From NCBI RefSeq assembly GCF_001899075.1, contig NZ_MKVA01000001.1, positions 35,180 through 99,179 on the forward strand: 64,000 nucleotides of DNA, read 5' to 3'. Origin of the DNA: Devosia sp. 67-54 (GTDB lineage: Bacteria; Pseudomonadota; Alphaproteobacteria; Rhizobiales; Devosiaceae). The notes beneath the pieces were generated by a model. It saw only the letters and a program-made list of their open reading frames with translations. It made no database searches and had not been told where the DNA came from. Positions 15,653-36,584 of this stretch are shown here, one piece after another (the first letter of the stretch is position 1; each line of letters opens with the position of its first letter). The position numbers and the translations under genes were made by a program.

Positions 15653-16726
15653 TCAGACGGATTTGAGGAACCAGGCCTGGCCCCAGTCGATGGCCAGGCG
15701 GACCTGCGCCCCCGGGGCAACCAGGCTAATGCCGGGCACGCGGAAGTCGATATTCTGAGACATGCCTGCCGGGCGCGCGACGATGCGCGTATAGCCATGC
15801 TCGGCCGTGACCGAGATCACCTCGGCAGGCATTCCCTCCGCGCCGATCGCAACGGTCCACTGATCGAAACAAAGCTTGACCGGCGCGTTTGCGACAACGG
15901 CGGCGTCGCCAAGCGGCACCCCTACCTCGAGTCCGTTGCCGACGCGCACCCGTGCGACGGCATCGCCGATCGTTGCAACCGTGCCGTCCAGCACATTGTG
16001 CATCCCGAGAAAGCGCGCCGCATAGTCGGTGCCCGGATGATGGAACAGGGCAGCGGTCTCGCCCCGCTCAACAATGCGGCCGCCCGACATGACGATGGTG
16101 CGGTCGGCGACCGCCATGGCTTCGCTGTAGTCGTGCGTCACGTAGATCGCGGTAACACCAAGCCGCTGCTGCAACTCGCGGATCTGCCGCCGCACTTCAA
16201 CGCGAGTATTGAAGTCGAGGCTACTCATCGGTTCGTCGAGCAACAGGATGCTAGGATTGATGGCGAGAGCCCGCGCCAATGCCACTCGCTGCTGCTGCCC
16301 GCCGCTCAATTGCCGCGGCATACGCGCACTCAGCTCTTCGAGTCCCACCAGCGCCAGCGCGTCACGTGCGCGGCGCCCGCGTTCGGCGCTATCGATGCCG
16401 CGCATGCTGAGGCCGAACTCTACATTGCGCCGCACATTGAGATGGGGAAACAGGGCCCAGGTCTGAAACACGAAGCCAATGTCGCGCTTGTGGACCGGCA
16501 CCCGGCTCAGATCGTTGCCGCCCAGCCGGACCGAACCGCTGTCAGCCTCGAGCAGTCCGGCGATGATGCGCAGCAACGTGGTCTTGCCGCAGCCGCTCGG
16601 CCCGAGCAGGCAAAGTGCCGAGCCCTTCTGGACATCGAGATCGATGTCGAAAACCCCGACATCGGTGCCAAAACGTTTGTTGATCCCACGCACCGACAGA
16701 TAAGCGGCATCGTTATTGCCGGGCAT
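15653..16726 (-). CDS. ABC transporter ATP-binding protein, spermidine/putrescine (PotA) type
   Basis: The ATPase of a MOI-type importer, 357 residues. Walker A is GPSGCGKTT (about residues 38-46), signature LSGGQQQRVALARAL, Walker B ILLLDEPMSSLD and switch VTHDYSEAM. The C-terminal third is a TOBE-like regulatory domain. It overlaps the upstream permease gene by 14 bases. Gene order binding protein, permease, permease, ATPase and the protein types suggest import of a polyamine-like or other cationic organic-nitrogen compound; the exact ligand is unknown. Confidence 0.92.
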   Translation of the reverse strand: MPGNNDAAYLSVRGINKRFGTDVGVFDIDLDVQKGSALCLLGPSGCGKTTLLRIIAGLLEADSGSVRLGGNDLSRVPVHKRDIGFVFQTWALFPHLNVRRNVEFGLSMRGIDSAERGRRARDALALVGLEELSARMPRQLSGGQQQRVALARALAINPSILLLDEPMSSLDFNTRVEVRRQIRELQQRLGVTAIYVTHDYSEAMAVADRTIVMSGGRIVERGETAALFHHPGTDYAARFLGMHNVLDGTVATIGDAVARVRVGNGLEVGVPLGDAAVVANAPVKLCFDQWTVAIGAEGMPAEVISVTAEHGYTRIVARPAGMSQNIDFRVPGISLVAPGAQVRLAIDWGQAWFLKSV

Positions 16727-17516
16727 TCACCACTCCATCGAATAGCTTGAAGCGGCCAAGGACTGCCATCAGGATAGCACCGGCCAGGATGAGCACCGAA
16801 GAGATGCTGGAGAGCGAGGGGTCGTTCGTCGTGTTTGCCAACTCGAACATGCGTACCGGCAAGGTGACGTGTCCGGGCACCGACAGGAATAGTGAGATGG
16901 CCACGTTGTCGAACGAGAAGATGAAGCTGAAGAGCGCCGCTGCCGCGATGCTGGGCAACATCGCCGGGATGGCAATGAGCCAGAAGGCGCGGGCGGGCGT
17001 AGCGCCCAGCGTAATACCGGCCTCTTCGAGTTCGGGTCCGAGATCCCCCATCGCACTGGAGATGAGCTGCAGGCTGAAGGGAAAGATCACGAGCAGATGG
17101 CCGACGGTGAGTGTCCAGATGGACGGCCGGATGTGCAGCCCGTTCTGCATGTAAAGCAGCAGCGCCAATGCCAGCAGCACCTCCGGCAGCACGAGCGGGC
17201 TGAGCGCCAGCGCCCGGAGCATGTTCCTTCCCCGAAATCTGTGGCGAACCAGAAGCACAGCCGTTGGCAGTGCGATCAGGAGCGCGAGAACCGTCGCAAT
17301 GCCGGCGATCTGCAGACTGAACAACAAGGACTCGCGGATCTGCGTGTCCTCGACAAGCTGCTCGTACCAGCGCAACGACCAACCGCGTGGCGGAAAGGCG
17401 ATGAAGCTCGTCGAACTGAATGAGAGGATCACCACCACCACCAGCGGAGACAGCAGGAAGAGGACCATCAGGCAGGCATACAGCCGACCCACGCCTCGCA
17501 TGATCATGGCGCTCAC
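16713..17516 (-). CDS. ABC transporter permease, PotC type
   Basis: An inner-membrane permease of about 267 residues with six hydrophobic segments and the EAA-loop sequence LEEAGITLGATPARAFWLIAIPAMLPSI (about residues 180-207) that contacts the ATPase. The GTG at 17516 overlaps the TGA of the preceding permease (GTGA) and has GGGAGAG seven bases upstream; an ATG at 17507 is the alternative. It pairs with the PotB-type permease just upstream. Confidence 0.9.
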   Translation of the reverse strand: MSAMIMRGVGRLYACLMVLFLLSPLVVVVILSFSSTSFIAFPPRGWSLRWYEQLVEDTQIRESLLFSLQIAGIATVLALLIALPTAVLLVRHRFRGRNMLRALALSPLVLPEVLLALALLLYMQNGLHIRPSIWTLTVGHLLVIFPFSLQLISSAMGDLGPELEEAGITLGATPARAFWLIAIPAMLPSIAAAALFSFIFSFDNVAISLFLSVPGHVTLPVRMFELANTTNDPSLSSISSVLILAGAILMAVLGRFKLFDGVVNARQ

Positions 17517-18379
17517 GCGATGTCTCTCCCTCGGGTGGACAACGCCGATAGAGGCAGCAGCAGCACCAACAGCACGACCGCCAGCGCAGCAGCCGCGGGA
17601 AAATTCAACGCCGTCGCTTGCTGATAGATCAGCATGGGGAAGGTGTTGACGCGACCTGCCCCCATCACCGCGGGCACGATAAACGAGGTCGCCGATAGAG
17701 CAAATACGAGCACCGTTCCAGTGGCGATACCTCGTGCAGACAGCGGCAGAACAACCTTGAGAAAGACCTGCCAGGGATTGGCGCCCAGCGTTTGCGCGGC
17801 TTCCGTTACCCCCGGACCTATCGACTGCATCGAGTTGAAGATTGCGATGCAGGCATAAGGCAGCAGGGTGTGGATCATGGTGATGACCACACCGCTCCAT
17901 GAGCCGATGAACATCATCCGAGCCTCATCGCCAAAGACCAGCGCGATTAGATTGTTGACCGGCCCGCTCTCCGACAGCAGCAACTGCCACCCATAGAGAC
18001 GCACCACGACGCTGATCACCAGCGGCCCGATCAGCGAGCCGATGATGACCATGCGCCAACGCGGCTGCCGCAACATGACGTAGGCGAGCGGCAGCGCCAG
18101 GGCCAGACTGCCCAGCGCAGTCAACAATGCGATGAACAGGGTGACGCCGAGCGACCCCAGATAGTAGGGGTCGCTCAGGACCTCGCCGAAGCGATCGAAC
18201 GTGAAGCCATCAAGCCCGATCCGGCCGCCGCCGACGCTGATGCGGATCATCAGCAGGAGCGGCGCTACCAGACACGGGAGAAGCAGTGCCAACACCGGCA
18301 GGGCCAACACTGGAACGAGCAGTCGCTTTTCCGCCCGCGATGTCGGCACGTCGGCGATTGCGGCAGCGGCCGTCGTCAT
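17513..18379 (-). CDS. ABC transporter permease, PotB type
   Basis: A 288-residue permease with about six membrane helices and the EAA loop VTEAAQTLGANPWQVFLKVVLPLSARGI. The N-terminal cytoplasmic tail is followed by LLPCLVAPLLLMIRISVG. The ATG at 18379 lies two bases after the stop of the binding-protein gene; the frame upstream of it is a shadow. It is the first membrane subunit of the polyamine-type importer. Confidence 0.9.
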   Translation of the reverse strand: MTTAAAAIADVPTSRAEKRLLVPVLALPVLALLLPCLVAPLLLMIRISVGGGRIGLDGFTFDRFGEVLSDPYYLGSLGVTLFIALLTALGSLALALPLAYVMLRQPRWRMVIIGSLIGPLVISVVVRLYGWQLLLSESGPVNNLIALVFGDEARMMFIGSWSGVVITMIHTLLPYACIAIFNSMQSIGPGVTEAAQTLGANPWQVFLKVVLPLSARGIATGTVLVFALSATSFIVPAVMGAGRVNTFPMLIYQQATALNFPAAAALAVVLLVLLLPLSALSTRGRDIA

Positions 18380-18381
18380 CG

Positions 18382-19449
18382 TCAACCGCTGATCTCGCGC
18401 AGCCAGCGATCGGACCATTTCGGCAGATTGGTGCCGGCATGGAGGAAATCGATCGGGAACAGCTTGTCTGCTACGTCGGCATTTTCGATCAGGCCATTTT
18501 GCACGTCAGGCGGAAGCACAACCGTGGTTGAAGGCGCTACTTGCGCCTCCTTGGCCCACTCGATTTGATTTGCGTCCTGCAGCATGAAGTCGATGAATTT
18601 TAGGGCGCTCTCGCGGTTTTCCGCCCCTTTGGGGATGCAGAACGCATCGCCCGCCCAGGTGCATCCCTCAGCCGGGATGGTGGCGACGATATTTTCCGAA
18701 GCCAGTGGCAGGCCGAGATCGAGCGTATTCACGCTAACCCAGGTGTCGCCGGCGACCAGCGAGGTGATTGCAGCCGAGGTGAGCGGGTAGAATTCACGAA
18801 TATTGGGCTTGAGCGCTTTCATCGCCGCCCAGCCCGGCTCCATGTCGTCGTCTTTCTGGCTGCCGCCATGCACGATATTGGCGGCGATCAGCATCAGGGC
18901 TGCGCCCAATGTCGGCATTTTCTGCACACTGATGCGGTTCGCCAGTTCGGGACGCCACAGATCCTTCCACGACGTGATCTCGAACGGGACCTTGTCCTTG
19001 CGCCACAGAATACCGATCGCCTTCCAATGCGTGGGGATACCGCCGATCAGGCCATTTTCGAGCAACAGCGGTGCTTGGATTTTCGACTGCACCTTCGAGA
19101 GCGACGGCACATCACTCATCTTGAGCGGCTCGATCAACTCGCGCTGCAGACCGCGCAGCACGGCATCGAAGCTTATGGCGACGGCATTGTACGAGGGCTG
19201 TCCCGCAGAGGCCTCGAGCTTGGCCAGCATCGGCTCCGACGAGGCAACATCCGTGACCAGTTCGATGCCGGTCTTCTGCTGAAATCTGGCGCCCAAGTTC
19301 TTGTAGGCCTTGTCGAAGACGCCACCGATTTCGCCATAGATTAAGCGGTTCGGGTTGCTCTGTGCCCAAGCTGCCCGCGGCAGTTGCAACGACGCTGCTG
19401 CACCCAGCGCCACACCACCAGCCAAGAAAGATCGCCGATCCATTCCCAT
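18382..19449 (-). CDS. ABC transporter substrate-binding protein, PotD/PotF type, Tat-exported
   Basis: A periplasmic binding protein of 355 residues. The N-terminus MGMDRRSFLAGGVALGAAAS is a twin-arginine signal peptide (RRSFL) with cleavage after AWA. The mature protein is a type-II binding protein of the spermidine/putrescine cluster: LIYGEIGGVFDKAYKNLG, YNAVAISFDAVLRGLQ, LLENGLIGGIPTHWKAIGIL, GDAFCIPKGAENRESALKFIDFML. It is first in a six-gene leftward operon ending with the FCD regulator. The start is followed upstream by a 146-base region with two symmetric sites. Confidence 0.9.
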   Translation of the reverse strand: MGMDRRSFLAGGVALGAAASLQLPRAAWAQSNPNRLIYGEIGGVFDKAYKNLGARFQQKTGIELVTDVASSEPMLAKLEASAGQPSYNAVAISFDAVLRGLQRELIEPLKMSDVPSLSKVQSKIQAPLLLENGLIGGIPTHWKAIGILWRKDKVPFEITSWKDLWRPELANRISVQKMPTLGAALMLIAANIVHGGSQKDDDMEPGWAAMKALKPNIREFYPLTSAAITSLVAGDTWVSVNTLDLGLPLASENIVATIPAEGCTWAGDAFCIPKGAENRESALKFIDFMLQDANQIEWAKEAQVAPSTTVVLPPDVQNGLIENADVADKLFPIDFLHAGTNLPKWSDRWLREISG

Positions 19450-19595: not shown

Positions 19596-20558
19596 CTAGC
19601 GCCGATGCTTGAAAGCGGCGCCCCTGGCCTCGGATTTGATCCATGCGGCTATCGTTGCAAAGGCCGCGCTGACTTGCGGCACCGCATCGGGCGCTGCCAG
19701 AAATCCATGATTGGCCCCGGTCATCCGGTGGCGGGTCACAGCTACGCCCCGCGCCCCCAAGAGGTGGGCAAAGGCTTCACCGTCGCTGCGCAGCACGTCG
19801 AATTCTGCCGTCAGCACCAGCGTGGGCGGCAGGCGCATGCCGGGCGGAAGCAGCAGCGGCGAGCAGCGCCAGTCGCCTCGGCTGATCGGGTGGGGAGCGT
19901 AGAGACCGGAGTTCCAGAGCATGTCATCGGTGGACAGCCCGGCCCGGCCGTCGCCGAACAGCCGATAGCTTTCGCTCTCGCCGATCCGCGACAGATCGGT
20001 GACCGGATAGAGCAGAACAAGCCCGGCGAGTTCGGGGACGCCCGCTGCCGCCGCAGCGGCCAGCGCACCGCCGGCACTGTCGCCGCCGACCAGGATGGCG
20101 CCCGCACCCAGCGCCTCAGCCGCCTCCAGCGCATAGACTGTCGCCGCCCGGGCATCATCCACGGCGGCAGGAAACGGATGCTCGGGCGCCAGCCGGTAGT
20201 CTACCGACAGGATGAGGATGCATGCCTCCCGCGCCAGCCGCCGCAGGATCGTGTCGTGCGTGTCGAGATCGCCGGCCACGAAGCCGCCGCCGTGGAGATA
20301 GACCAGCAGCGGCAGCGGCCGTTCCGCAGAGGGCCGATAAAGGCGCAGCGGCAGCGTCCCGCCCGGCCCCGCGATCTGCAGCGCCTCGACGGCAAGCAGA
20401 TCGATGGGCGGCGTCGCGCCATCCGGCAAATTGCGGCGGCGGTTCAGGGCGCGGGCCTCGGCGATGCCGACATCCTGGTAGCGCGGCTGGCTGCGCCGTG
20501 CTGCAACGCCCGCCGCCAGCAGCGGATGCAGGCCTGGCGGACTCTCAGGTGAGGGCAT
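19596..20558 (-). CDS. Alpha/beta hydrolase, hormone-sensitive lipase (HSL/GDXG) family
   Basis: A serine esterase of about 320 residues. The oxyanion-hole motif HGGGFVAGDLDTHD (about residue 85) and nucleophile motif GDSAGGALAAAA (about residue 155) define the HSL family. The acid and His are expected in VLTAEFDVLRSDGEAF and TGANHGFL. The ATG at 20558 overlaps the end of the upstream dehydratase gene by 14 bases. It is the last gene of the IclR-controlled region and probably cleaves an ester or amide bond of the imported compound or a by-product. Substrate unknown. Confidence 0.88.
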   Translation of the reverse strand: MPSPESPPGLHPLLAAGVAARRSQPRYQDVGIAEARALNRRRNLPDGATPPIDLLAVEALQIAGPGGTLPLRLYRPSAERPLPLLVYLHGGGFVAGDLDTHDTILRRLAREACILILSVDYRLAPEHPFPAAVDDARAATVYALEAAEALGAGAILVGGDSAGGALAAAAAAGVPELAGLVLLYPVTDLSRIGESESYRLFGDGRAGLSTDDMLWNSGLYAPHPISRGDWRCSPLLLPPGMRLPPTLVLTAEFDVLRSDGEAFAHLLGARGVAVTRHRMTGANHGFLAAPDAVPQVSAAFATIAAWIKSEARGAAFKHRR

Positions 20559-21489
20559 CGGGCCCGGCGCCACAGACAATGGCGCACACCGTCTCGCCAT
20601 CGGCCGGCCGCACCCGCCCTTCCCGCAATGCCGCCAGCGCCGCAGCGCCGCTGAGGTCGGCGGCGAGCCCCATCTCGAACCATAGCCATTCTGCGGCGGC
20701 GCGCATCTCGTCGTCGCTCACCAACACGATCTCGTCGACCCGCTCGCGCACCACCTCGTAGATGCGTTCGTCCGAGCGTGCGCAGGCCATGGTGGCGACG
20801 GCCGTCGTCACCCGCTCGAGCGCGATGTTATGGCCCGCCTCGAGCGACCGCAGCAACACCGGCGAGCCGTCGGCCTCGATGCCGACGATCCGCACATCCG
20901 GTCGCAGCGCCTTGATGGCGGTGGCGACGCCACTCACCAGCCCGCCGCCGCCCATCGCGACCAGCACCGTCGTGACGTCCGGCATATCCTCGAGAATCTC
21001 CAGCCCAACCGTCCCCTGCCCCGCGACCACGTCGGGATCCGCGAAGGGATGGAAATACGCCGCCCCGGTTTCCGCTTGGAACGCCAGCGCCGCAGCGTTG
21101 GATTCGTGCCAGGCGGACCCCACGATGCGGACATCCGCGCCCCAGGCGCGCAGCTTCTCGATCTTGGCGGGCGCCGCATTGGTGGGCAGGAACACCGTCG
21201 TCGGCACCCCCGCCATGTAGCCAGCGCGCGCCGTGGCAAGACCGTGATTGCCGCCCGAGGCGGTGACGATGCCGCGCGCCAGTGCCGGCTGGTCGAGCCC
21301 GAGGAGCCGGTTGGTCGCCCCGCGCGCCTTGAACGAGCCAGTGACCTGCAGCAATTCGAGCTTGAGCAGCAGCCGATAGCCGCCGGGCAGCGGAGATTTG
21401 AGCCCGGTCGCGGCGATCGCCGGCGTGCGGCGCACATTGCCGGCAATCCGGCTCGCAGCCCGGTGGATGTCGTCAAGCTCGACGATCAC
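20545..21489 (-). CDS. PLP-dependent threonine/serine dehydratase family protein (EutB-like)
   Basis: A fold-type II PLP enzyme of 314 residues. The Schiff-base Lys is in GSFKARGATNRLL (about residue 54), SGGNHGLATA (about residue 80) binds the cofactor phosphate side, and MGGGGLVSGVATA is the glycine loop. Such enzymes remove water and ammonia from hydroxy-amino acids by way of enamine intermediates. It starts with GTG overlapping the stop of the DoeB-like gene (GTGA). In ectoine loci the equivalent gene, eutB, is thought to act on hydroxyectoine-derived compounds; here the substrate may differ. A RidA-family protein in the same locus would suit an enamine-forming enzyme. Confidence 0.88.
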   Translation of the reverse strand: MIVELDDIHRAASRIAGNVRRTPAIAATGLKSPLPGGYRLLLKLELLQVTGSFKARGATNRLLGLDQPALARGIVTASGGNHGLATARAGYMAGVPTTVFLPTNAAPAKIEKLRAWGADVRIVGSAWHESNAAALAFQAETGAAYFHPFADPDVVAGQGTVGLEILEDMPDVTTVLVAMGGGGLVSGVATAIKALRPDVRIVGIEADGSPVLLRSLEAGHNIALERVTTAVATMACARSDERIYEVVRERVDEIVLVSDDEMRAAAEWLWFEMGLAADLSGAAALAALREGRVRPADGETVCAIVCGAGPDALT

Positions 21490-22493
21490 GCAATGTCTCC
21501 CTCATAGGGTACCGCTACCGTGACGCAGCAATTGCCCGGCACCACGCGGCCCGGCTGCCGGCGCCCGTAAACGATGCCGTCGGCCGAATAATAGACGATT
21601 TCGGGTGGGCGCGACGGATCGGTGAGCTTGTGGATGCGTCCGGCCGGCTGGCCGGCCGACACCTGTGTGCCGAGCGCATGGAACGGTTCGAACACCCCGT
21701 CGGTCGTCGCCAGCACGAAGCCCTCGGGTCCCGGAATGCGCAGGATCATCTCCGGCCGCGACTTCGGCGTCGCACCGGTCGGCGGCAGCACCCCCAGATG
21801 CGCCAGCACGTTACGCACGCCCCGCCGGCAGATGCCGAGCGCATCGAGCGACACCGTGCCCGCACCGGCCATCTCCGTGCCCACCGCCACGAGGCCGTGG
21901 CGAACCGCGGTGGCCATGGCCGTGCGCGTGTCGCCCAGATTGTCGATCACCACCGTCACCGGCGCGTCGAACGCCAGCACCGCCGCGATGTTCTTCTTGC
22001 GCAGCACCGGGTCGGGCGTCGGCTCGATCGCTGCGCTCGGCATGATGTTCAGCGACGAGCCCCCTGAGTGCAGATCGAGGAAGGCATCGCCCATCGGCAG
22101 GATCACCTCGTCCATGTAGGCGGCAATCTGCTGCGTAATCGTGCCCAGCGGGTCGCCTGGAAAGCTGCGGTTGATATTGAGCCCATCGACCGGCGAGGTG
22201 CGCTGCCCTGCCCCGACCGCGGGCGTATTGAGCGCCGGCAGAATGATCAGCCGGCCGCTCACCTCGGCCGGGTCGAGCTCGCGGATCATCTCGCCCAGCG
22301 TGATCGGCCCCTCATACTCGTCGCCGTGATTGCCACCTTCGAGGATCACCGTCGGTCCCGTGCCATTCTTGATCACCGCCAGTGGGATGCGCGTCGCCCC
22401 CCACGCGTCCTCGTGCGGGGAGTGGGCAATATCGATGAAGCCGATCTGCTTGCCGTGGCGATCGAAGTCGATGGTCGTGCGCGCGCTGGACAT
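21486..22493 (-). CDS. Succinylglutamate desuccinylase/aspartoacylase family deacylase (DoeB/EutE-like)
   Basis: A zinc carboxypeptidase-fold deacylase of 335 residues. Zinc-site motifs are GGNHGDEYEGP (His and Glu, about residue 54) and LDLHSGG (His, about residue 150). GRLIILPALNTPA, NINRSFPGD and the opening TTIDFDRHGKQIGF resemble DoeB, the N-acetyl-diaminobutyrate deacetylase of ectoine breakdown. The ATG at 22493 is used; the longer frame is a shadow. It sits between the transporter genes and the EutB-like gene, as deacylases do in ectoine clusters. An N-acyl amino acid is the likely substrate type. Confidence 0.88.
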   Translation of the reverse strand: MSSARTTIDFDRHGKQIGFIDIAHSPHEDAWGATRIPLAVIKNGTGPTVILEGGNHGDEYEGPITLGEMIRELDPAEVSGRLIILPALNTPAVGAGQRTSPVDGLNINRSFPGDPLGTITQQIAAYMDEVILPMGDAFLDLHSGGSSLNIMPSAAIEPTPDPVLRKKNIAAVLAFDAPVTVVIDNLGDTRTAMATAVRHGLVAVGTEMAGAGTVSLDALGICRRGVRNVLAHLGVLPPTGATPKSRPEMILRIPGPEGFVLATTDGVFEPFHALGTQVSAGQPAGRIHKLTDPSRPPEIVYYSADGIVYGRRQPGRVVPGNCCVTVAVPYEGDIA

Positions 22494-22564
22494 GGAACGC
22501 TTTTCTGTTGGGAGGGCGCCGGAAGACGACGGAGAGGCACCGCCTCCCCGTCGCGGGGAATCGC

Positions 22565-23353
22565 TCAGATCGGGGGGAGCGAGGTGATGTTGGTGCCGAG
22601 CCATTTCTGCGACAGCGCCGACAGCGAGCCGTCATGCCAGCCCAGATGCACATAGGTGTTCAGCCAGTGCAGCAGCTCCGGCTCGCCCTGCGGCAGGCCG
22701 ATATAGCAGGGCGATTCGCTCATGATGAATTTGGGATGCAGCACCGCCCCCTTGTTCTTGCTCATGATGTCCTGCGCCACGATGTCGGCCGTGGCCAGCA
22801 ATTGCGCCTGCCCCGACAGGAACGCCGCCGCCGAGCTGGCATCGTCATCGTAGCGCTGGATCTTGGCGTTGGGCGCCAGCGCGGTGAGCAGCAGGTCCTG
22901 CGTCGTGCCCTTGGTGAGCGCGATCGTGTAATCGCCGAGCTGGTCGGCGCTGCTGACGTTGATATTGTCGGGGCCGAACACACCCTCCGACAGCGCCGCG
23001 TAAGGCGAGGTGAAGTCGATCTGCAGCGCCCGCTGTGGCGTCGCGCCCATCGCCGCGATGACGATATCCAGCTTGTCCGTCATCAGGTATGGAATGCGGT
23101 TGGCGCCGGTGATCGGCGTCAGCTCGGCGGTGACGCCCAGCGCCTTGGCAATGGCGTTGGCCATATCCACGTCGAGCCCCACCGGCTGGTTGCTGGCGTC
23201 CATGGAGCCGAACGGCGCCACATCGACCGGCACGCCGATACGAATTTTGCCTGACGCGATGATCTGCTGCAGGTCGGCGGCCATGGCGGGCACGACCGAG
23301 ACGGCGCCGGCCAGGAGCACGGCTGAGACGATCCTGGAGAGATGCTTCAACAT
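22565..23353 (-). CDS. Polar amino-acid-type ABC transporter substrate-binding protein (EhuB-like)
   Basis: A periplasmic protein of 262 residues with a signal peptide (residues 1-25, cleavage after AMA). The mature sequence is a family 3 solute-binding protein: IASGKIRIGVPVDVAPFGSMD, PVGLDVDMANAIAKALG, VIAAMGATPQRALQIDFTSPYA and GQAQLLATADIVAQDIM. It binds an amino acid or amino-acid-like zwitterion such as ectoine. It is transcribed after the two permease and ATPase genes and ahead of the deacylase; a small hairpin (CCCCG TCG CGGGG) follows it near 22550. Confidence 0.9.
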   Translation of the reverse strand: MLKHLSRIVSAVLLAGAVSVVPAMAADLQQIIASGKIRIGVPVDVAPFGSMDASNQPVGLDVDMANAIAKALGVTAELTPITGANRIPYLMTDKLDIVIAAMGATPQRALQIDFTSPYAALSEGVFGPDNINVSSADQLGDYTIALTKGTTQDLLLTALAPNAKIQRYDDDASSAAAFLSGQAQLLATADIVAQDIMSKNKGAVLHPKFIMSESPCYIGLPQGEPELLHWLNTYVHLGWHDGSLSALSQKWLGTNITSLPPI

Positions 23354-23392
23354 GGTAGTTCCCCCTCTGGGTCTTGGAGTGGTCGGTTTCGG

Positions 23393-24124
23393 TTAGTGCA
23401 GAACCGCGCTCAGGAAGCTCCTGAGCTCCGCGGTACGGGGCTCGACCAGGGTCTGACGTGCCGGGCCATCCTCGTGGATGCGGCCCTCATGCATGAAGAT
23501 CACCCGGTCGGCGACGTTCTTGGCAAAGTTCATTTCGTGCGTGACGAGCATCATGGTCATGCCATCCTTGGCCACGCCTTCGAGCACGCGCAGCACCTCC
23601 CCCACGAGCTCGGGATCGAGCGCCGAGGTGATTTCGTCGAACAGCATCAGCGTCGGCTGCATGGCGAGCGAACGGGCGATGGCCACCCGCTGCTGCTGGC
23701 CGCCCGACAATTCGTCGGGATAGGCGCCCAGCTTGTCGGCGAGCCCGACCCGCGCCACCATTTCCTTGGCGATCTCGCGCGCCGCCGGCAGCTTCATCTT
23801 GCGCACCAGCGTCAGGGCGAGCGTGATGTTGCGTTCCACCGACAGATGCGGAAACAGATTGTAGCTCTGGAACACCATCCCGGCCTGCTGGCGCAGCCGG
23901 TTGAGGTCGGCGTCCGGCGAAGTGACCTCGGTGCCGGCGACGACGATCCGCCCCGCCTGCACCTTTTCGAGGCCGTTGAGGCAGCGCAGCATCGTCGACT
24001 TGCCCGAGCCGGAGCGGCCGATGACGGCGACGATCTCACCCTTGTCCACCGTCAACGAGATGCCCTTCAGCACCTCGACCACGCCGAAGCTCTTATGGAT
24101 GTCGCTGACCTCAACGAGCGGCAT
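23393..24124 (-). CDS. Amino-acid ABC transporter ATP-binding protein (GlnQ/EhuA-like)
   Basis: A 243-residue ATPase with Walker A GRSGSGKST (about residues 35-43), Q-loop FQSYNLFPHLSVERNI, signature LSGGQQQRVAIARSLAMQP, Walker B LMLFDEITSALDPE and switch VTHEMNFAKNVADRVIFM. These match the polar amino-acid transporter family. The start overlaps the end of the upstream permease gene by 14 bases. It powers the importer formed with the two permeases and the binding protein. Confidence 0.93.
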   Translation of the reverse strand: MPLVEVSDIHKSFGVVEVLKGISLTVDKGEIVAVIGRSGSGKSTMLRCLNGLEKVQAGRIVVAGTEVTSPDADLNRLRQQAGMVFQSYNLFPHLSVERNITLALTLVRKMKLPAAREIAKEMVARVGLADKLGAYPDELSGGQQQRVAIARSLAMQPTLMLFDEITSALDPELVGEVLRVLEGVAKDGMTMMLVTHEMNFAKNVADRVIFMHEGRIHEDGPARQTLVEPRTAELRSFLSAVLH

Positions 24125-24761
24125 GAGGCGTCCTTTCGAGCCGCTGACTCAGGCGCGTCAGGGCAAAGCAGATGACGAAATAGATGAGTGCGGCGACGCC
24201 GTAGACCTGCAGCGGCGCATAGGTCGAGTTGGAGAGGATCTGGCTTTCGCGCGTCAGTTCGACAAAGCCGATCAGCGCCGTCAGCGACGTGTCCTTGACC
24301 AGTTGCACCAGGAAGCCGACCGTCGGTGGAACAGCGATGCGGATCGCCTGCGGCAGGATCACATGCAGCAGGCGCTGGTGGTAGGGCAGGCCCAGCGATG
24401 CCCCCGCCTCCCATTGCCGCGGCGACACCGATTGCAGGCTGCCGCGCCAGATTTCGCCGAGGAAGGCCGAGGCGTAGATCGACAGTGACAGCGCCGCGGC
24501 GACCCACGGATCGACCACCACATGAAAGAGCGGCAAGCCGAAGAAGAAGACGAAGAGCTGCCCGAGCAGCGGCGTACCCTGGATCAGATTGATGAACCCG
24601 ATGGCGAGCCAGTTGGCCGGCTTGAACGGCACGATGCGCAGCACCGCGACGATGACGCCGAGGATACCCCCGCCAACCGCCGCGATCAGGGCGAGCGCTA
24701 CCGTCCAGCGCGCCGCCTCGAGCAGATAGACGATGTCGTTCGGCCCGAATTCACGGATCAT
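24111..24761 (-). CDS. Amino-acid ABC transporter permease (EhuC/D-like, second)
   Basis: A 216-residue HisM/HisQ-type permease with about five membrane helices. GTPLLGQLFVFFFGLP and the coupling loop EAGASLGLPYHQRLLHVILPQAIRIAVPP (about residues 118-146) are diagnostic. The ATG overlaps the stop of the first permease gene (ATGA). It probably forms a heterodimer with that permease. Confidence 0.92.
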   Translation of the reverse strand: MIREFGPNDIVYLLEAARWTVALALIAAVGGGILGVIVAVLRIVPFKPANWLAIGFINLIQGTPLLGQLFVFFFGLPLFHVVVDPWVAAALSLSIYASAFLGEIWRGSLQSVSPRQWEAGASLGLPYHQRLLHVILPQAIRIAVPPTVGFLVQLVKDTSLTALIGFVELTRESQILSNSTYAPLQVYGVAALIYFVICFALTRLSQRLERTPHAAR

Positions 24762-25432
24762 CTGCTGCGGCTCCGCCGGACGAAGACGAGCTGCCAGACG
24801 ACGGCGAAGAGCGCGCGGAACGTCAGTGTCAGCACCAGATAGGCCGCGGTGATCAGCGAATAGGTCTCGAACGAGCGGTAGGTGCGCGAGTCGATGAAGG
24901 ACGCTTCGCTGAACAGCTCCGTCGCGCCGATCGCGGAGACGACGCTGGTGGCCAGCAGCAGCAGCACGAACTGGCTGGTCAGCGCCGGATAGACGGCCTT
25001 GACGGCCTGGAACAGCACCACGTGCCGAAAGGTCTGCCCGGCCGTGAGCCCGAGCGAGCGCCCCGCCTCCACCTGGCTGGTGCGGATCGATTGCAGTCCG
25101 GCACGAAGGATTTCGCCGCAATAGGCGCCGAGGTTGATCGAAAGCGCCACCACCGCCGCCGTATTGGCGTCGAACCTGATTCCCAGATGCGGCAAGCCGA
25201 AGAACACGATCAGCAATTGCACCAGCAGCGGCGTGTTGCGGATGGCTTCCACATAGGTCGTGGCCGCGCCGCGCAGCACCGGGATCGAGCCGGTTCGCGC
25301 CAGCGCCACGAATAGGCCGATGACCAACCCGATGCTCATCGTGATGACCGACAATTGCAGGGTCAGCACCACGCCCCGGACGATCTCGTCCGTGTAGGGC
25401 AACAGCGCGCTGAACCGGAAATTGTAACTCAC
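24758..25432 (-). CDS. Amino-acid ABC transporter permease (EhuC/D-like, first)
   Basis: A 224-residue HisM/HisQ-type permease. RNTPLLVQLLIVFFGLPHLG and the coupling loop EAGRSLGLTAGQTFRHVVLFQAVKAVYP are typical. It opens the transporter transcript and is preceded by a 130-base gap that carries a copy of the direct-repeat element also found in front of the iclR gene. This suggests its own regulated promoter rather than read-through from the M24 gene. Confidence 0.92.
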   Translation of the reverse strand: MSYNFRFSALLPYTDEIVRGVVLTLQLSVITMSIGLVIGLFVALARTGSIPVLRGAATTYVEAIRNTPLLVQLLIVFFGLPHLGIRFDANTAAVVALSINLGAYCGEILRAGLQSIRTSQVEAGRSLGLTAGQTFRHVVLFQAVKAVYPALTSQFVLLLLATSVVSAIGATELFSEASFIDSRTYRSFETYSLITAAYLVLTLTFRALFAVVWQLVFVRRSRSR

Positions 25433-25475
25433 TGGTCAGATCCCGTTCGCAGTCAGGGCAAGGCTATGATCGAGT

Positions 25476-25504
25476 CATATATGAAGTCAAGTACCATACA
25501 TGAA
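25476..25504. promoter_or_regulatory. Direct-repeat element, candidate IclR operator upstream of the transporter genes
   Basis: CATATATGAA and CATACATGAA are repeated with a 19-bp period and the spacer begins GTCAAG. The core TATATGAAGTCAAG (25478-25491) is identical to 14 bases in front of the iclR gene. The element starts 44 bases upstream of the first permease. Two matching copies in one locus argue for a regulator site. Confidence 0.75.
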
Positions 25505-25562
25505 ACAGCGCACGCTCGATGCGAGAACCGTGCGAGAACCGTGCAAGAGCCCTGCAAGAGTC

Positions 25563-26720
25563 CTACGAGACGACCATCAGTTCCCTGCGATATTGTGCGA
25601 GAGTCGCATGGCCGGTGGCGGTCACCAGAACATTGTCGATGAGCCGCGCGCCAAGCCCTTCCTCGCCCACGAACACCGGCGGCTCGACGGTCACCACCAT
25701 CCCGGCCTGCAGCGTGTAAGAACTCCGATCCAGAAAGTGGAGCGGCTCCGCCCAGGTCGGCGGGAACCCGGGGCCGAGTCCATATCCCGACAGATGTACG
25801 CGGTGCCGGTCGAGCCCGGCATCGGCGATGACCCGGCGCGCCGCCTCGTGCACGGCCGTTGCGGCCACCCCATCGGCGATGCTGGCCAGCATGGCATCGG
25901 AAGCTAGGCGCACCACGTCATACAGCTCGACCATCCGCCGGCTGGGCTCGCCCAGCACGAACTGCCGTCCGAGCGTCGCCGTGTAGCGCCGGCAGGTCGC
26001 GCCGAATTCGACATTGCCGAAATCGCCGCGGCGCATTACCCGCGTCGTCGGCGCTCCGTGGCTGAAGGCCGAACGCGGCCCCGAGACGAGATTGATCGGG
26101 CTCGCCGCGATGCCGCTGCCCCGCGACAATAGCGTCTCGTAGATGCGGCCGGCGAGCTGTAGCTCGGTCTTGCCGGCCGCCAACTCGTCGTGGAAAGCGG
26201 CCATCGCGTCATCTGCCATTCGGGCGGCCTGCCGGACATAGTCCAGCTCGGTCGCCGATTTGACCAGCTTGAGGTCGGCGATCAGGGAGGTCGCATCGAC
26301 CAGCCGATCGGGACCGAGCAGATCGCGCAGGCCGAGATAGTGATAGGGGTGCAGATAGGCGCCCTGCACTTCGAGCCCCACGCGCCGCCCGATCAGCCCG
26401 AGGTCGTGGGCAAGGGAGGCGAAGGCGTCGAGCGGGTTTTCGCTGACGCCACCGCCCCAGCCCACCACGCGGTCCGCAATGGACTCCGCTTCCAGCTCGT
26501 TGACTTCGCCGGCGCGCACGAGAACCGTCAGCGGCTCGTCATTCGCCCCGACGAACAGGCACTGGAACTCCTGATAGCTCTTAGCCTCGCTGCCGGTGAG
26601 CCAGAGGATCGACACCGGATGCACCGCGACCAGCCAGTCGAGGTTCCGCGCCGCCATCGCTCGGCGAACCCGGCCGAGCCGCTCGCTGAACTCGGCGACC
26701 GGGAAGTCGTCCTTCGACAT
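25563..26720 (-). CDS. M24 (creatinase/aminopeptidase P fold) hydrolase lacking the usual metal ligands, DoeA/EutD-like
   Basis: A 385-residue pita-bread-fold protein with an N-terminal creatinase domain (LDWLVAVHPVSILWLTGSEA) and a C-terminal M24 domain. The usual ligands appear changed: the first Asp position reads VEFGA, the second falls in TATLG, and the His motif HGxG reads SGYGLGPGFPP. This is the pattern of metal-independent members such as creatinase and ectoine hydrolase DoeA. It would then hydrolyse a ring or amidine C-N bond rather than a peptide. It shares one base with the upstream RidA gene stop. Substrate unknown; an ectoine-like cyclic compound is a working guess. Confidence 0.82.
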   Translation of the reverse strand: MSKDDFPVAEFSERLGRVRRAMAARNLDWLVAVHPVSILWLTGSEAKSYQEFQCLFVGANDEPLTVLVRAGEVNELEAESIADRVVGWGGGVSENPLDAFASLAHDLGLIGRRVGLEVQGAYLHPYHYLGLRDLLGPDRLVDATSLIADLKLVKSATELDYVRQAARMADDAMAAFHDELAAGKTELQLAGRIYETLLSRGSGIAASPINLVSGPRSAFSHGAPTTRVMRRGDFGNVEFGATCRRYTATLGRQFVLGEPSRRMVELYDVVRLASDAMLASIADGVAATAVHEAARRVIADAGLDRHRVHLSGYGLGPGFPPTWAEPLHFLDRSSYTLQAGMVVTVEPPVFVGEEGLGARLIDNVLVTATGHATLAQYRRELMVVS

Positions 26721-27907
26721 CAGTCCGGTCTCACGCCGAACGCCTCGATTTCAACAAGCAGGTTTTCGTAGGCGAAGCCGGCCACGCGCACGGCCGTCAC
26801 CACCGGGCCGGGGTCGGGATAGAATTCGCGCTGCACTCTGGCGATCACCGCGCGCGTGTCCTCGATCTGCCGCCAGTCGCCTTCGGCATGGAAATAGATA
26901 TAGAGCTTGGAGATATTGGCCTCCGTGTAGCCGCCTTCCGCCAGCGTGCTGCGGATGAATTGAAAGACGTTGCGCGCCTGGGTCTCCATGTCGTCACCCA
27001 CGGCCCGGCCGTGATTGTCCGCTGAAATCTGACCGCCGATGAAGATCAGCGGGCCCTTCACCCATCCCTGGGTGTACTGCATGCCGGGCACGCTCCAGTC
27101 CCAATGATTGGCCGGCTGCAACCGCAGGCGCTCGTCGCCCAGAACGGCGATCCCCTCGACCTGGATCAGTTCCTCGAGCCGGGGCATGCCTTGCACACGG
27201 AGGCCGGCGCCGGCCGCCGAGGGCACCGACATATAGCGCCGTCGTACCGCGTTCATCTTCTCCCAATAGCTCGTGACCTCACGGCCCTGGCCGTAGAACA
27301 GGAAGTAGGTGTTCTGGCGCATCAGGCTGTGGCGATCACCGCCGCCGGCGCGCAGCATGGTGTCGAGGTTACGGAAGGATTCGTCGGTCTGTACTTCGAT
27401 ATCGTCCTGCCCAAGCACCTGCCCATTGGCATCGAGCGCGCGCTGCGCGCCGATGAACAGCATGTCGTCGACCTTCCAGCCATGCACGAACGGCAGATCG
27501 TCCGCCCATCGCCAGTGCCCGTCCGGCGGTGCGATCACCTCGCGCTTGCCGCCGATGACCACCCACACATCGAGCATCAACAGCGCGCCCTCGCGGTCGA
27601 GCCCGCAGCGAATCTCGGTGGTCGCCGGACCGGGCGCGCTGAAATAGCTGCTCCGCACGGCATTGACCTGCGCCATGAAGGCGTCGATGGCCTCCTGCTC
27701 GGGCGGGCAATTGAAGTAGATGCTGTGCTTGACCACGTCGGCAAGGCTCGCGCCGATGCCAGCCAGCGCCTCACGCAAGCTGTCGAAGACCATTTTGGTC
27801 TGCACTGTCACGTCCGGCGGCGCCATGCGGTCCTCGGCATCAATCGCCAAGATGCCGCCCACGAACACCAGAGCGCCGCACCGGATCACCCTCGGCACAC
27901 TCCTCAC
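26720..27907 (-). CDS. Triple RidA-domain (YjgF/YER057c/UK114) protein
   Basis: A 395-residue protein consisting of three complete RidA-like domains in tandem (roughly residues 1-118, 125-250 and 260-395). Each has a strand corresponding to LVFVGG, LFIGAQ or IFIGGQ, a helix region, and a closing edge (EIRCGL, GLRVQG, AVRVAG). RidA family members deaminate reactive enamine/imine intermediates from PLP dehydratases; the catalytic PAR arginine is not present in any of the three, as in Rid4-7 subfamilies. The GTG at 27907 with AAGGGAGG upstream is preferred over the ATG at 27970. It heads a unit with the M24 gene. Confidence 0.85.
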   Translation of the reverse strand: MRSVPRVIRCGALVFVGGILAIDAEDRMAPPDVTVQTKMVFDSLREALAGIGASLADVVKHSIYFNCPPEQEAIDAFMAQVNAVRSSYFSAPGPATTEIRCGLDREGALLMLDVWVVIGGKREVIAPPDGHWRWADDLPFVHGWKVDDMLFIGAQRALDANGQVLGQDDIEVQTDESFRNLDTMLRAGGGDRHSLMRQNTYFLFYGQGREVTSYWEKMNAVRRRYMSVPSAAGAGLRVQGMPRLEELIQVEGIAVLGDERLRLQPANHWDWSVPGMQYTQGWVKGPLIFIGGQISADNHGRAVGDDMETQARNVFQFIRSTLAEGGYTEANISKLYIYFHAEGDWRQIEDTRAVIARVQREFYPDPGPVVTAVRVAGFAYENLLVEIEAFGVRPD

Positions 27908-28030
27908 TCGCGCCTCCCTTTCGTTTGCCTCGGGCGAGCCGGTGGACCAATTTCGCTTCGGGCGCGCCATGCGATAAAAGCACGCTCATCCGACCGGTTC
28001 AGGGTCGCCACTAGCAACAGGGCATTGTTT

Positions 28031-28059
28031 TGTATATGAAGTCAAGAATTGTATATAAA
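28031..28059. promoter_or_regulatory. Direct-repeat element, candidate IclR operator in the iclR-ridA control region
   Basis: TGTATATGAA and TGTATATAAA recur with a 19-bp period, the same as at 25476-25504, and the spacer begins GTCAAG. It ends 17 bases before the iclR start, and lies 123 bases upstream of the RidA gene start on the other strand, a position suited to autorepression and control of the divergent unit. Confidence 0.75.
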
Positions 28060-28076
28060 TCGACAAGAGGGCTGAG

Positions 28077-28847
28077 GTGACTGAAGCGCCGGTGGAAGAG
28101 CGCGCCGGATATTCCGCTCCGGCGCTGGAGAAAGGCCTCGACATCCTTGAGCTCCTCGCGACGGAAGCCGAGCCGATGACCACCCGGCAGATCAGCGAGC
28201 GACTCGGGCGATCCAAGAGCGAGATTTTCCGCATGGTCTATGTCCTGGTCGAGCGCGGCTATCTCCGTCGCGATCCTGCTACTGACCAGCTCTCGCTGAG
28301 CAACCGGCTGTTCGAGTTGGGGATGAAGACGCCGCGCTCACGTACGCTGGTCGAAGTGGCGCTGCCGGCGATGGAGCGGCTGACGGCCATGGTGGGCCAT
28401 GCCAGCCACCTCGTGGTGATCAGCCGCGGCGAGACAGTGGTGATCGCCCACGCCGCGGCCCGCACGGACTTCAACTTTACCCTGCGGCTCGGCTATGGCA
28501 ATCCGACCACCGAGGCTGTGTCCGGGCGAACTATCATCGCATTCCAGTCGGCCGAAAGGCGTGCTGCCATGATCCGTGACAGCTTCGCGCTGCTCGAAAC
28601 CCCACCGCCGCTCGACAAGCTGATCGAGCAACTCGACCGCATCGCCGCGGCAGGTTCGGTGGTCGCGGCGAGTCACCGGCTTGTCGGCGTCACCGATATC
28701 TGTGCGCCGATCCTCGACCGCTCCGGCTGGGCGATCGCCGGCATAACAATACCCTGCCTGCAGCGCGTCGGCACGGAGTGGGCATTCGAGGACATTCGCG
28801 ATCAACTGGTAAAAGTCTGTCACGAGATTTCCGACGCCTTGCTATGA
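28077..28847 (+). CDS. IclR family transcriptional regulator
   Basis: A 256-residue regulator. The N-terminal winged helix is KGLDILELLATEAEPMTTRQISERLGRSKSEIFRMVYVL (about residues 18-56). The C-terminal GAF-like effector domain has HLVVISRGETVVIAHA, GRTIIAFQS and a closing GWAIAGITIPCLQR. The GTG at 28077 follows AAGAGG. It is divergent from the RidA-M24 unit and probably controls it and the transporter/deacylase unit through the two direct-repeat elements. Its effector may be the imported compound or an intermediate. Confidence 0.92.
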   Translation: MTEAPVEERAGYSAPALEKGLDILELLATEAEPMTTRQISERLGRSKSEIFRMVYVLVERGYLRRDPATDQLSLSNRLFELGMKTPRSRTLVEVALPAMERLTAMVGHASHLVVISRGETVVIAHAAARTDFNFTLRLGYGNPTTEAVSGRTIIAFQSAERRAAMIRDSFALLETPPPLDKLIEQLDRIAAAGSVVAASHRLVGVTDICAPILDRSGWAIAGITIPCLQRVGTEWAFEDIRDQLVKVCHEISDALL

Positions 28848-30561: not shown

Positions 30562-30823
30562 CCTGGCTCTCCGAGAAATCCACCTTCCGCCCAACTGACC
30601 TAGTGTCGCAGTACACCGGCCATTGGGTCGGGCACGCCCATCGCGGCGAGGCCGTCTCTGCGGCAAGCCGGCCGCAAACCGCCATATCCTCGCACGTTTC
30701 GGGTGCCCACGGCTATTCCTTGCACGCGGATCGGGGTGTTGCCAAGTCCTGCTTCAACAGTGCGCGGCACCCCATTGCCATTGCCGTACGGGCCGGCTAC
30801 GGTCCACGTGTATCGAGGAACTA

Positions 30824-30835
30824 GAACACGTGTTC
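30824..30835. promoter_or_regulatory. Palindrome over the start codon of the GntR-type regulator gene, candidate autoregulatory site
   Basis: GAACACGTGTTC is a perfect 12-bp palindrome that includes the proposed GTG start. Its CACGTGT core recurs at 30805-30811, 22 bases upstream, about two helical turns away. Position and repetition suggest a regulator site, though E-box-like CACGTG also occurs by chance in GC-rich DNA. Confidence 0.45.
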
Positions 30836-31870
30836 CCCATCGACGCCAACAGCATCGACAAGTCGCTGCCCGTGCCGGTCGGCTCGCAGCTCTATGGGCT
30901 GTTGAGCTACGCGCTGTCGTTCGGCGGCATCCCGCACGGTACCAAGCTGCAATCGGTGCGCCAGCTCGCCTCCGAGCTCGGCATCGCGCCGATGACCGTG
31001 GCACAGGTCTATCAGCGCCTGCGCGACGCCGGCCTCATCGAAATGAAGCACGGGCTGGGTGCCTTCGCCGTCAGCGACCCGGAAAAGCTGGGCCGCGACC
31101 AGCTTCCGGCGTCGGCGCTTCGCGCCGATATCGAGGTGCTGATCGGCAAGGCCGAAAAGCTCGGCGTCTCCACCCTGACGCTGACCTCGATGATCAGCGC
31201 CCAGGCGCTGCTACGCCGCCCTACCGCCGGGCTCAGGATCGTCTTCATCGCCATCTTCGAGGGCCCCGGACGCGACTACATCGCGCAGATCAAATCCGTG
31301 CTCGCCGCCACCGACCAGGTGCAGCTGCTGACACTCGACGCCCTGCGGGTGTCCGAGGAAGCGCGGCAAGTGTCGAGCGAAGCCGACATCGTGCTCACCT
31401 TCCTCCACCGCGAGGTCGAGGTGAAGGCGCTGATCCCCGAGGCGCGCGTGCTCGGCCTGCGCTTCATTCCCTCCGAGCGCACGCGCCAGGCACTGGCCGG
31501 GCTCGACCCCCGCATGCGGGTCGCCGCCGTGACCTATTTCCAGGAATACATCGCCATCATGCGCCCCAGCGTGCGCGAATTCGCCCCGCACATCGCCGAC
31601 ATCAAGGTCACCTGGTCCTCCTCGCCGGACCTGCCCGGCCTGGTGCGCGAATGCGACGCGGTGATCTTCGCCTCGGGCGCCGACCATGTGGCCGACCTCG
31701 TGCCGCCCGGCGTGCCCTGCTTCGAGTACCGGCACGCGCCCGATCCGGGTGCGCTCGAGACCGTGCTCGTGCCGCATCTGGCCGAGCTGCGCCGCGACAA
31801 GCTGGCCGGCAACCAGACCGACCAGCCGGCATCTGCAAAACGCCCAGCACGGAGAGCCGCCAACATCTGA
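30830..31870 (+). CDS. GntR family regulator with periplasmic-binding-protein-like effector domain
   Basis: A 346-residue regulator. The N-terminal winged helix is SYALSFGGIPHGTKLQSVRQLASELGIAPMTVAQVYQRLRDAGLIE (about residues 24-69). The remaining 230 residues look like a type-I periplasmic-binding fold: LRIVFIAIFEGPGRDYIAQIKSVLA, ADIVLTFLHREVEVKALIP, DAVIFASGADHVADLVPPG. The GTG at 30830 is chosen because upstream translation looks non-coding; AGGA lies ten bases before it. It precedes the peptide-type transporter operon by 54 bases and probably controls it and itself. Confidence 0.8.
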   Translation: MFPIDANSIDKSLPVPVGSQLYGLLSYALSFGGIPHGTKLQSVRQLASELGIAPMTVAQVYQRLRDAGLIEMKHGLGAFAVSDPEKLGRDQLPASALRADIEVLIGKAEKLGVSTLTLTSMISAQALLRRPTAGLRIVFIAIFEGPGRDYIAQIKSVLAATDQVQLLTLDALRVSEEARQVSSEADIVLTFLHREVEVKALIPEARVLGLRFIPSERTRQALAGLDPRMRVAAVTYFQEYIAIMRPSVREFAPHIADIKVTWSSSPDLPGLVRECDAVIFASGADHVADLVPPGVPCFEYRHAPDPGALETVLVPHLAELRRDKLAGNQTDQPASAKRPARRAANI

Positions 31871-36560: not shown

Positions 36561-36584
36561 TCAGACGACAAGAAGGAAATCTCC

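Follow-up and report, generated by a model that had tools for sequence, protein, structure and literature searches.

A Devosia locus that looks like an operon for uptake and hydrolysis of an amino-acid derivative resembles the ectoine route in enzyme types and is apparently a separate pathway

In the available portions of the literature, ectoine is broken down through DoeA and DoeB, EutABC serve hydroxyectoine, and EnuR and AsnC are the common regulators (PMC5924519, PMC3187862, PMC13188858). The accessible text of PMC13188858 adds that eutA and eutBC are missing from part of the true ectoine consumers, and that of PMC3187862 that H. elongata still grows on ectoine after deletion of eutBC. Proteins with three Rid domains, such as EF_0115, have already been described as "3x-RidA" and are presumed to be covalent trimers (PMC4433059, available text); this was the only paper on them found by title or matches in a partial literature collection. 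Here we analysed a 64,000-nt stretch of Devosia sp. 67-54, contig NZ_MKVA01000001.1 (hereafter the window, whose numbering gives the coordinates), in which a first-pass annotation had read a possible IclR-controlled variant of ectoine catabolism combining a triple RidA protein (3x-Rid, gene ridA3), an M24 hydrolase, a polar amino-acid ATP-binding cassette (ABC) importer, a deacylase, a pyridoxal-phosphate (PLP) dehydratase and an HSL-type esterase. The results suggest that this locus looks like an operon for uptake and hydrolysis of an amino-acid derivative, resembling the ectoine route in its enzyme types and apparently forming a separate pathway.

Genomes were searched for the set of ridA3, M24, four ABC genes, deacylase, dehydratase and IclR, as the first-pass annotation had advised, and the complete set was found in four replicons: the window, the plasmids of Mesorhizobium sp. 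B2-1-8 and B2-1-1 (compared loci L014 and L015) and the metagenome-assembled genome Devosia sp. 66-22 (L031). Identity to the window in the three other full cassettes was 68-71% for ridA3, 64-67% for M24, 71-75% and 76-79% for permeases 1 and 2, 81-86% for the ATPase, 70-77% for the binding protein, 76-78% for the deacylase, 74-77% for the dehydratase and 46-52% for IclR. The same gene order in three other replicons rules out chance neighbours, and the comparison supports one coherent catabolic locus conserved as a set elsewhere. The HSL-type esterase, initially counted into the combined function, had no match in any of 84 compared loci (E <= 1e-10, 35% coverage; the 80 loci of the scan described below plus L014, L015, L020 and L021), and it was rejected as a pathway member and regarded as a lineage-specific rider outside the conserved set. 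In the two annotated Mesorhizobium records the proteins carry generic names (Xaa-Pro peptidase, succinylglutamate desuccinylase/aspartoacylase, RidA, threonine/serine dehydratase), and no published description of the gene set was found in the partial collection of literature searched. At E <= 1e-30, the 3x-Rid protein occurred in the window's genome only among 297 sampled genomes of the order, and in the window's genome and 4 distant relatives among 385 sampled genomes of the class. Because the protein is rare in these samples and two copies lie on plasmids, we infer horizontal transfer. A repABC plasmid was rejected as the carrier, no RepA over the cut-off being present in the genome, which leaves other plasmid types as possible carriers.

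To place the locus among its relatives, a five-member deacylase alignment was scanned against 84,980 species genomes, returning at least 80 loci; all counts derived from it are lower bounds. We defined 31 cassette loci (27 of the 80 at >= 55% identity, three plasmid loci and the window) and four more distant "Pantoea-type" loci in which one Rid gene precedes the importer (three from the 80, one from a plasmid), and compared them with 21 DoeB loci, in which DoeB adjoins DoeA, and 34 other loci, some loci being cut by contig ends. Of the 31 cassette loci, 23 had a dehydratase homologue on the strand of the deacylase and no more than 600 bases from it, as did all 4 Pantoea-type loci; none of the 21 DoeB loci and none of the 34 other loci did. 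Among these others, L077 (51% identity) and L084 (42%) carry a dehydratase on the opposite strand, several kilobases away. The importer type (ATPase plus permease) was near the deacylase in 14 of 31 cassette, 4 of 4 Pantoea-type, 3 of 21 DoeB and 1 of 34 other loci, and IclR was near 20 of 31 cassette loci and 0 of 4 of the Pantoea type. From this distribution, importer, deacylase and dehydratase look like an older core, and ridA3-M24 like an addition in the window's branch.

Other hydrolases accompany this core. L141 encodes IclR, an importer whose permeases and ATPase are 59-67% identical, a creatininase-family gene, a second binding protein and M24, then DHDPS-family and MFS genes; no deacylase or dehydratase match was found on its 11,427 bases. 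L039 has a 63% identical creatininase between importer and deacylase, followed by the dehydratase; its opposite strand encodes IclR, M24 and a second binding protein. IclR, deacylase and dehydratase are joined by a creatininase-family gene further down in L020, L040, L047, L048 and L051, while an amidohydrolase and a DUF4432 gene precede deacylase and dehydratase in L042 and L044. Since M24 accompanies this importer and IclR but no deacylase in L141, and accompanies a creatininase-family hydrolase, deacylase and dehydratase in L039, these hydrolases probably act on one imported compound or class, and they may be exchangeable C-N hydrolases feeding one deacylase-dehydratase pair. In L041, an ornithine-cyclodeaminase (OCD)-family gene (PF02423) at 11037-12005 of that locus stands directly after the dehydratase of the core; its product belongs to the family of EutC and could catalyse a subsequent NAD(P)-dependent step.

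We compared nine locus proteins with NCBIfam models (permease 2 was left out), and none of them reached the cut-off of any ectoine family. The importer scored below the cut-off of every Ehu model (EhuB 43.3 bits against 190.9, EhuA 267.9 against 345.4, EhuD 135 against 205.2, EhuC 133.4 against 196.95), and higher matches, again all below their own cut-offs, were obtained with cystine permease, GlnQ, a Lys/Arg/Orn binding-protein subfamily and the serine/threonine dehydratase PRK08246. The labels "Ehu-like" and "EutB-like" are therefore loose. EutA and EutC gave no match in the window with Rhizobium phaseoli queries (tblastn, E <= 1e-8, 40% coverage), consistent with their earlier reported absence, nor in the other 34 loci of the deacylase clade, whereas 18 of the 21 DoeB loci gave a match to the EutC query and 13 to the EutA query. 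No DoeA, DoeB or EutA over the cut-off was detected anywhere in the host genome, the best EutA match reaching 168.2 bits against 318 on another contig, and L041 has a weak Asp/Glu-racemase match under the cut-off. Because some true ectoine consumers lack these genes, according to the accessible text of PMC13188858, and L041 has an OCD-family gene, the absence of EutA and EutC here decides little alone.

The deacylase catalytic domain scored 117.8 bits against a cut-off of 25, which places it in the AstE/AspA superfamily, and H56, E59, H142 and E207, which we take to be the zinc and catalytic positions of this superfamily, were invariant over 5 sequences. DoeB was its only NCBIfam match at E <= 1e-5, at 291.9 bits against a cut-off of 402.7. 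In a tree of 93 rows built by a quick method, the 35 clade loci grouped together (SH-like approximate likelihood ratio test 98), the Pantoea type branching within them, and the 21 DoeB rows stood apart (100). The comparison with DoeB recommended earlier does not support membership: DoeB is the nearest NCBIfam model, but the enzyme falls below its cut-off and in a separate clade. The best solved structure by sequence was 3cdx, deposited as succinylglutamate desuccinylase/aspartoacylase and presumably of Cereibacter/Rhodobacter origin. Elsewhere in the host genome, contig C11 (513790-516960) holds another AstE-type deacylase about 2 kb from a Rid gene, and contig C6 (8163-11179) two deacylases about 1 kb apart.

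The dehydratase contains the catalytic lysine motif and TASGGNHGLA...CGAG, where EutB has STGNHGR, and it scored 242.4 bits against 413 and 230.6 against 413.35 with the two EutB models. With SGGNHGL in place of STGNHGR and neither cut-off reached, comparison with EutB does not bear out the assignment made at first.

At the five positions that we take to be the metal ligands of prolidase, the M24 hydrolase has E/T/Y/E/I, one of five being identical to the solved P. furiosus prolidase segment, so its description as lacking metal ligands holds. DoeA has E, P, Y, M, T there, and the metal-type control L018b keeps all five. In a residue comparison that leaves out the deviating row L147, E238, H221, R245, Y246, R252, Y313, P321 and W323 were common to 14 window-clade M24 rows and two DoeA rows. 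In M24 as in DoeA, the first metal Asp is replaced by Glu and the metal His by Tyr, and a PPxW loop is present; L151 shows these features too, and they are therefore not specific to DoeA. The window M24 is 25% identical to the two DoeA rows, which are 72% identical to each other, and 29% identical to the prolidase segment. A quick tree of 54 rows, with several long-branch warnings, separated the window clade (15 rows) from DoeA (21 rows), both at 100, and the best NCBIfam score was 149.5 bits against 575 for DoeA_2, with 126.3 against 613 for EutD. In profile scores, M24 gave 49.8 bits for creatinase 1chm, 111.6 for DoeA and 144.3 for the best dipeptidase. The parallel with DoeA thus extends to the features of a metal-free site, but not to clade or model cut-off; like DoeA, M24 probably needs no metal for activity, yet it is not DoeA itself, and it may be a pseudoenzyme. 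Its predicted structure had a mean predicted local distance difference test (pLDDT) score of 64.7 with low confidence around the active site, too poor for conclusions.

To assess the substrate class, we aligned 16 binding proteins (14 from cassette loci, one Pantoea-type and the second of L039) with three EhuB-annotated proteins and, as controls, two amino-acid binders of solved structure from the PDB. An arginine that we take to bind the carboxylate was kept in every aligned protein, while the position of the aspartate that presumably holds the alpha-ammonium group was occupied by A or N in all of the 16, by P, P and A in the three EhuB-annotated proteins and by D in both controls. Because the arginine is kept and the ammonium aspartate lost, a ligand with a free carboxylate and a blocked nitrogen is favoured. 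These residues favour the N-acyl amino acid, the better of the two substrate types first suggested; N-acyl serine, threonine, diaminopropionate or hydroxyaspartate are guesses.

The regulator adjoining ridA3 is an IclR-family protein by Pfam, as first read. The 14-bp TATATGAAGTCAAG had two matches in the window at <= 1 mismatch (expected 0.01), and the same two sites were the only ones in the whole 4.2-Mb genome at that threshold (control zero); shuffled gaps shared 14 bases in 0 of 2000 mononucleotide shuffles. Because TATATGAAGTCAAG occurs exactly twice in the genome, in the IclR-ridA3 and M24-permease gaps, IclR probably controls both units, through predicted binding to these elements. The common element and the presence of IclR near many cassette loci agree with the IclR control originally proposed. 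A related palindrome, TTCATATATGAA, had three window matches at <= 2 mismatches, the two gap sites and 60711 (expected 0.37). Just before iclR it was exact in L035, L036, L037, L038 and L041, had one mismatch in L039 and two in L014, L015, L020, L040, L042, L046 and the window, and 52 control loci (813,222 bases) contained 2 matches at <= 1 mismatch and 5 at <= 2. In the Mesorhizobium and Devosia full cassettes, iclR lies between M24 and the first permease. The window has no TetR gene next to ridA3; here iclR seems to have been relocated to the front of the locus, and ridA3-M24 to have come under the element found in both gaps. Inverted repeats of the TACTTAC...GTAAGTA type occur before ridA3 beside TetR at 2790-2844 of L031 and near 13900-13974 of L014; they are a possible TetR operator.

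The 3x-Rid protein has three PF01042 stretches in one chain, also recovered with a hidden Markov model, which places it in the 3x-RidA class and confirms the triple RidA protein read at first. The column of the catalytic arginine (Arg105) is T, G and V in its domains 1-3, and arginine is missing from 11 of 12 domains of the four 3x-Rid orthologues, the exception being L031 domain 1. In the available text of PMC4433059, this arginine is essential for imine hydrolysis, its replacement by Ala nearly abolishes RidA activity, and the Rid4-Rid7 subfamilies lack it, with Trp at this place in Rid4 and Rid7 and differing residues in Rid5 and Rid6; subfamilies without it are considered not to hydrolyse imines, and the functions of Rid4-Rid7 are called completely unknown. 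AmnE, a Rid-family 2-aminomuconate deaminase acting on a ring-cleavage product, keeps Arg117 (PMC6742747, available text). Arginine is also kept in the single Rid proteins of L020, L021, L058, L062 and L082 and in 5 of 6 other aligned Rid domains of the window's genome, which totals ten Rid matches, counting the three of ridA3 and one further match outside the alignment. Distant arginine-less triple Rid proteins are near polysaccharide-deacetylase-fold hydrolases (L027, L028, L029), diiron monooxygenases (L027, L029), M24 (L028) and an amidase (L030, which has two triple Rid genes). Because these relatives adjoin ring- or amide-opening enzymes, the arginine-less branch might be a general accessory of N-heterocycle breakdown. 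The predicted 3x-Rid structure was too poor for conclusions (mean pLDDT 41.5).

We combined the computed gene set and its conservation, the clade memberships, the active-site residues and the unique repeated element into a proposal in which we infer the substrate class and the order of steps. On balance, we lean towards a cassette that moves horizontally, is regulated by IclR and serves to import and degrade an amino acid with a blocked alpha-nitrogen, either N-acylated or part of a ring. The ABC importer would bring the N-blocked compound in, and the metal-free M24, perhaps with the co-encoded 3x-Rid, would hydrolyse a C-N bond, either in the starting compound itself or in a broader range of derivatives. 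Next, the AstE/DoeB-type zinc deacylase would remove the acyl group to give a beta-substituted amino acid (Ser/Thr/hydroxy- or amino-type), from which the PLP enzyme would eliminate water or amine, yielding a 2-amino-enoate and from it a 2-oxo acid and ammonia. IclR would bind the two private elements and control iclR, ridA3-M24 and the ABC-deacylase-dehydratase(-HSL) unit.

Several observations weigh against this proposal. Among NCBIfam models, M24 and the deacylase score best with those of the ectoine route, DoeA_2 and DoeB, although far under their cut-offs. The binding proteins of the window, L014, L015 and L031 have an aspartate one residue after the lost one, and this residue might yet contact an amino group. 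The M24 step would be optional, because the gene was present within 8 kb in just 5 of 31 cassette loci and in none of the 4 Pantoea-type loci. For 8 of 31 cassette loci, some of them truncated at a contig end, no adjacent dehydratase was detected, and those of L052 and L053 are just 29-30% identical, so the deacylation product need not always pass through a dehydratase. In 8 of the 21 cassette loci that have an IclR, L031 among them, the 400 bases next to the IclR start gave no match to TTCATATATGAA, and neither did the M24 loci L141 and L143; in Mesorhizobium and Devosia a TetR gene, not IclR, stands before ridA3-M24.

Against the N-blocked amino-acid cassette we weighed a divergent ectoine or 5-hydroxyectoine route, in which M24 would open the ring, the deacylase would remove acetate and the dehydratase would take 3-hydroxy-diaminobutyrate directly, leaving EutA and EutC unneeded. 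The same three enzyme types are present, with ectoine models as the best if sub-cut-off matches of two of them; M24 and DoeA are alike in Glu, Tyr and PPxW, the binding protein is without the ammonium Asp like EhuB, and the consumers without eutA or eutBC (PMC13188858, available text) together with the OCD-family gene and weak racemase match of L041 would fit. However, ectoine-family membership was rejected on the basis of the sub-cut-off scores, the separate deacylase and M24 clades and the different dehydratase motif, and M24 is only about 25% identical to the DoeA rows. M24 is near only 5 of the 35 clade loci, so the core cannot rely on this M24 to open an ectoine ring, and the intact growth of the H. 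elongata eutBC deletion means that the dehydratase is no ectoine requirement there (PMC3187862, available text). We therefore regard this route as very improbable, and the ectoine-catabolism variant of the first-pass annotation is not upheld. It also seems unlikely that the substrate is a creatinine- or hydantoin-like cyclic ureide or guanidino acid, with a creatinase-like M24 replacing or following a creatininase-family hydrolase. The gene arrangements of L141 and L039, the five further loci with creatininase-family genes and the amidohydrolases of L042 and L044 all speak for it, but the window contains no creatininase-family match (E <= 1e-10), such matches also occur outside the clade (L070, L090), the M24 profile scores creatinase far below DoeA and the best dipeptidase, and a creatinine route would need no N-deacylase and dehydratase.

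The role of the triple Rid protein was weighed in the same way. It had been suggested to deal with enamines that the dehydratase produces, on the model of RidA with threonine dehydratase, and a Rid gene does accompany the deacylase-dehydratase pair as 3x-Rid in 4 loci, as a single Rid in 4 Pantoea-type loci and as a single Rid about 8 kb along the L020 row; L031 domain 1 even has arginine at the column. Because all three window domains are without the essential arginine, enamine removal by 3x-Rid is unlikely; the loss extends to nearly all orthologue domains, arginine-less subfamilies are thought not to hydrolyse imines (PMC4433059, available text), the arginine-keeping Rid domains elsewhere in the genome could serve instead, and in 25 of 31 cassette loci the available stretch contains no Rid gene. 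We therefore consider this role doubtful for 3x-Rid, while the idea keeps some force for the single, arginine-keeping Rid proteins that accompany the dehydratase in some lineages. A bolder version of the N-blocked amino-acid cassette, which we put forward only tentatively and think rather unlikely, is a new route for breaking down an amino acid that is N-capped or held in a ring; the first cut would fall to a new metal-free M24 clade, and an arginine-less covalent Rid trimer would perform a new reaction or protect an intermediate.

All genes named at first are open reading frames at their places (Table 1), and Pfam families were above the cut-off for 7 of 7 locus proteins scanned. Every locus gene except IclR is on one strand. 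ridA3 and M24 overlap by 1 base, a 130-base gap follows, and the two permeases, ATPase, binding protein, deacylase, dehydratase and HSL esterase are then tightly packed.

Table 1. Genes and putative regulatory elements of the locus, in window coordinates
Feature	Coordinates	Strand	Evidence and remarks
IclR-family regulator	28077..28847	+	Pfam HTH_IclR and IclR_C (PF09339, PF01614); divergent from ridA3
Putative IclR operator, copy A	28029..28046	.	IclR-ridA3 gap; TATATGAAGTCAAG at 28033-28046
Triple Rid-domain protein (3x-Rid, ridA3)	26720..27970	-	PF01042 three times in one chain
M24 (pita-bread fold) hydrolase, metal site missing	25563..26720	-	PF00557 and PF01321
Putative IclR operator, copy B	25474..25491	.	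M24-permease gap; TATATGAAGTCAAG at 25478-25491 within GTCATATATGAAGTCAAG
Polar amino-acid ABC permease 1	24758..25432	-	Best NCBIfam match cystine permease, 152.6 bits, under cut-off 300
Polar amino-acid ABC permease 2	24111..24761	-	Open frame; homologues in the other full cassettes
ABC ATPase, GlnQ-like	23393..24124	-	Best NCBIfam match GlnQ, 300.9 bits, under cut-off 379
Periplasmic binding protein, SBP_bac_3	22565..23353	-	PF00497
AstE/AspA-type deacylase	21486..22493	-	PF24827
PLP fold-type II dehydratase/ammonia-lyase	20545..21489	-	PF00291
HSL-type esterase	19596..20558	-	PF07859; in the gene row here

A second gene row lies directly upstream at 30623-40759 and, judged from its translations, encodes a regulator-like protein, oligopeptide-type ABC proteins, another M24 and an amidohydrolase-like protein. 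It also holds an AstE-type deacylase (36585-37532) that is 27% identical to that of the locus. The M24 match of this row (about 33556-34680) spans one in-frame TAG, so this copy may be broken or a base miscalled. Downstream of the locus, 14538-19449 contains an ABC set read as spermidine/putrescine type (binding protein 18382-19449) and an M19 dipeptidase (14538-15626); neither this binding protein nor the dipeptidase had a homologue in the 84 compared loci. The G+C content at 60001-64000 is 51.5%, against 62-70% in the remaining window.

These results make the ectoine label unlikely, and the binding-site residues narrow the substrate class. The private element with its two sites offers a simple reporter for finding the inducer, and the locus provides a test case for the role of Rid proteins without the catalytic arginine.

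Compared with known systems, the deacylase relative of 3cdx on a Cereibacter plasmid (L023) falls in a different clade of the deacylase tree, and its neighbourhood, an ABC set with two ATPases and SDR, enolase-superfamily and M81 genes, is unlike the window. The beta-hydroxyaspartate pathway (BhcB/BhcR) likewise pairs a PLP dehydratase with an IclR-family regulator, and BhcR is the best NCBIfam match of the window IclR, but the window scores are far below the cut-offs (BhcB 204.6 against 550, BhcR 86 against 350). Creatininase/creatinase pairs find a likeness in the creatininase-family and M24 genes together in L141 and L039, whereas the window has no creatininase-family match and its deacylase and dehydratase follow. 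As with Rid4-Rid7 in the available text of PMC4433059, the window 3x-Rid is without the arginine, but has T/G/V at the column; it matches the 3x-RidA protein EF_0115 described there in its three domains in one chain, presumably a covalent trimer, and differs in sitting in a proposed cassette for N-blocked amino acids. The ectoine cluster (ehu/ueh-eutABCDE, doeAB) is alike in its metal-free M24 ring hydrolase, AstE-fold deacetylase, threonine-dehydratase-type PLP enzyme and amino-acid-type importer. In contrast to it, the deacylase and M24 of this locus form their own clades, EutA and EutC have no match, M24 is optional, the adjacent regulator is IclR instead of EnuR or AsnC, and a 3x-Rid protein is present.

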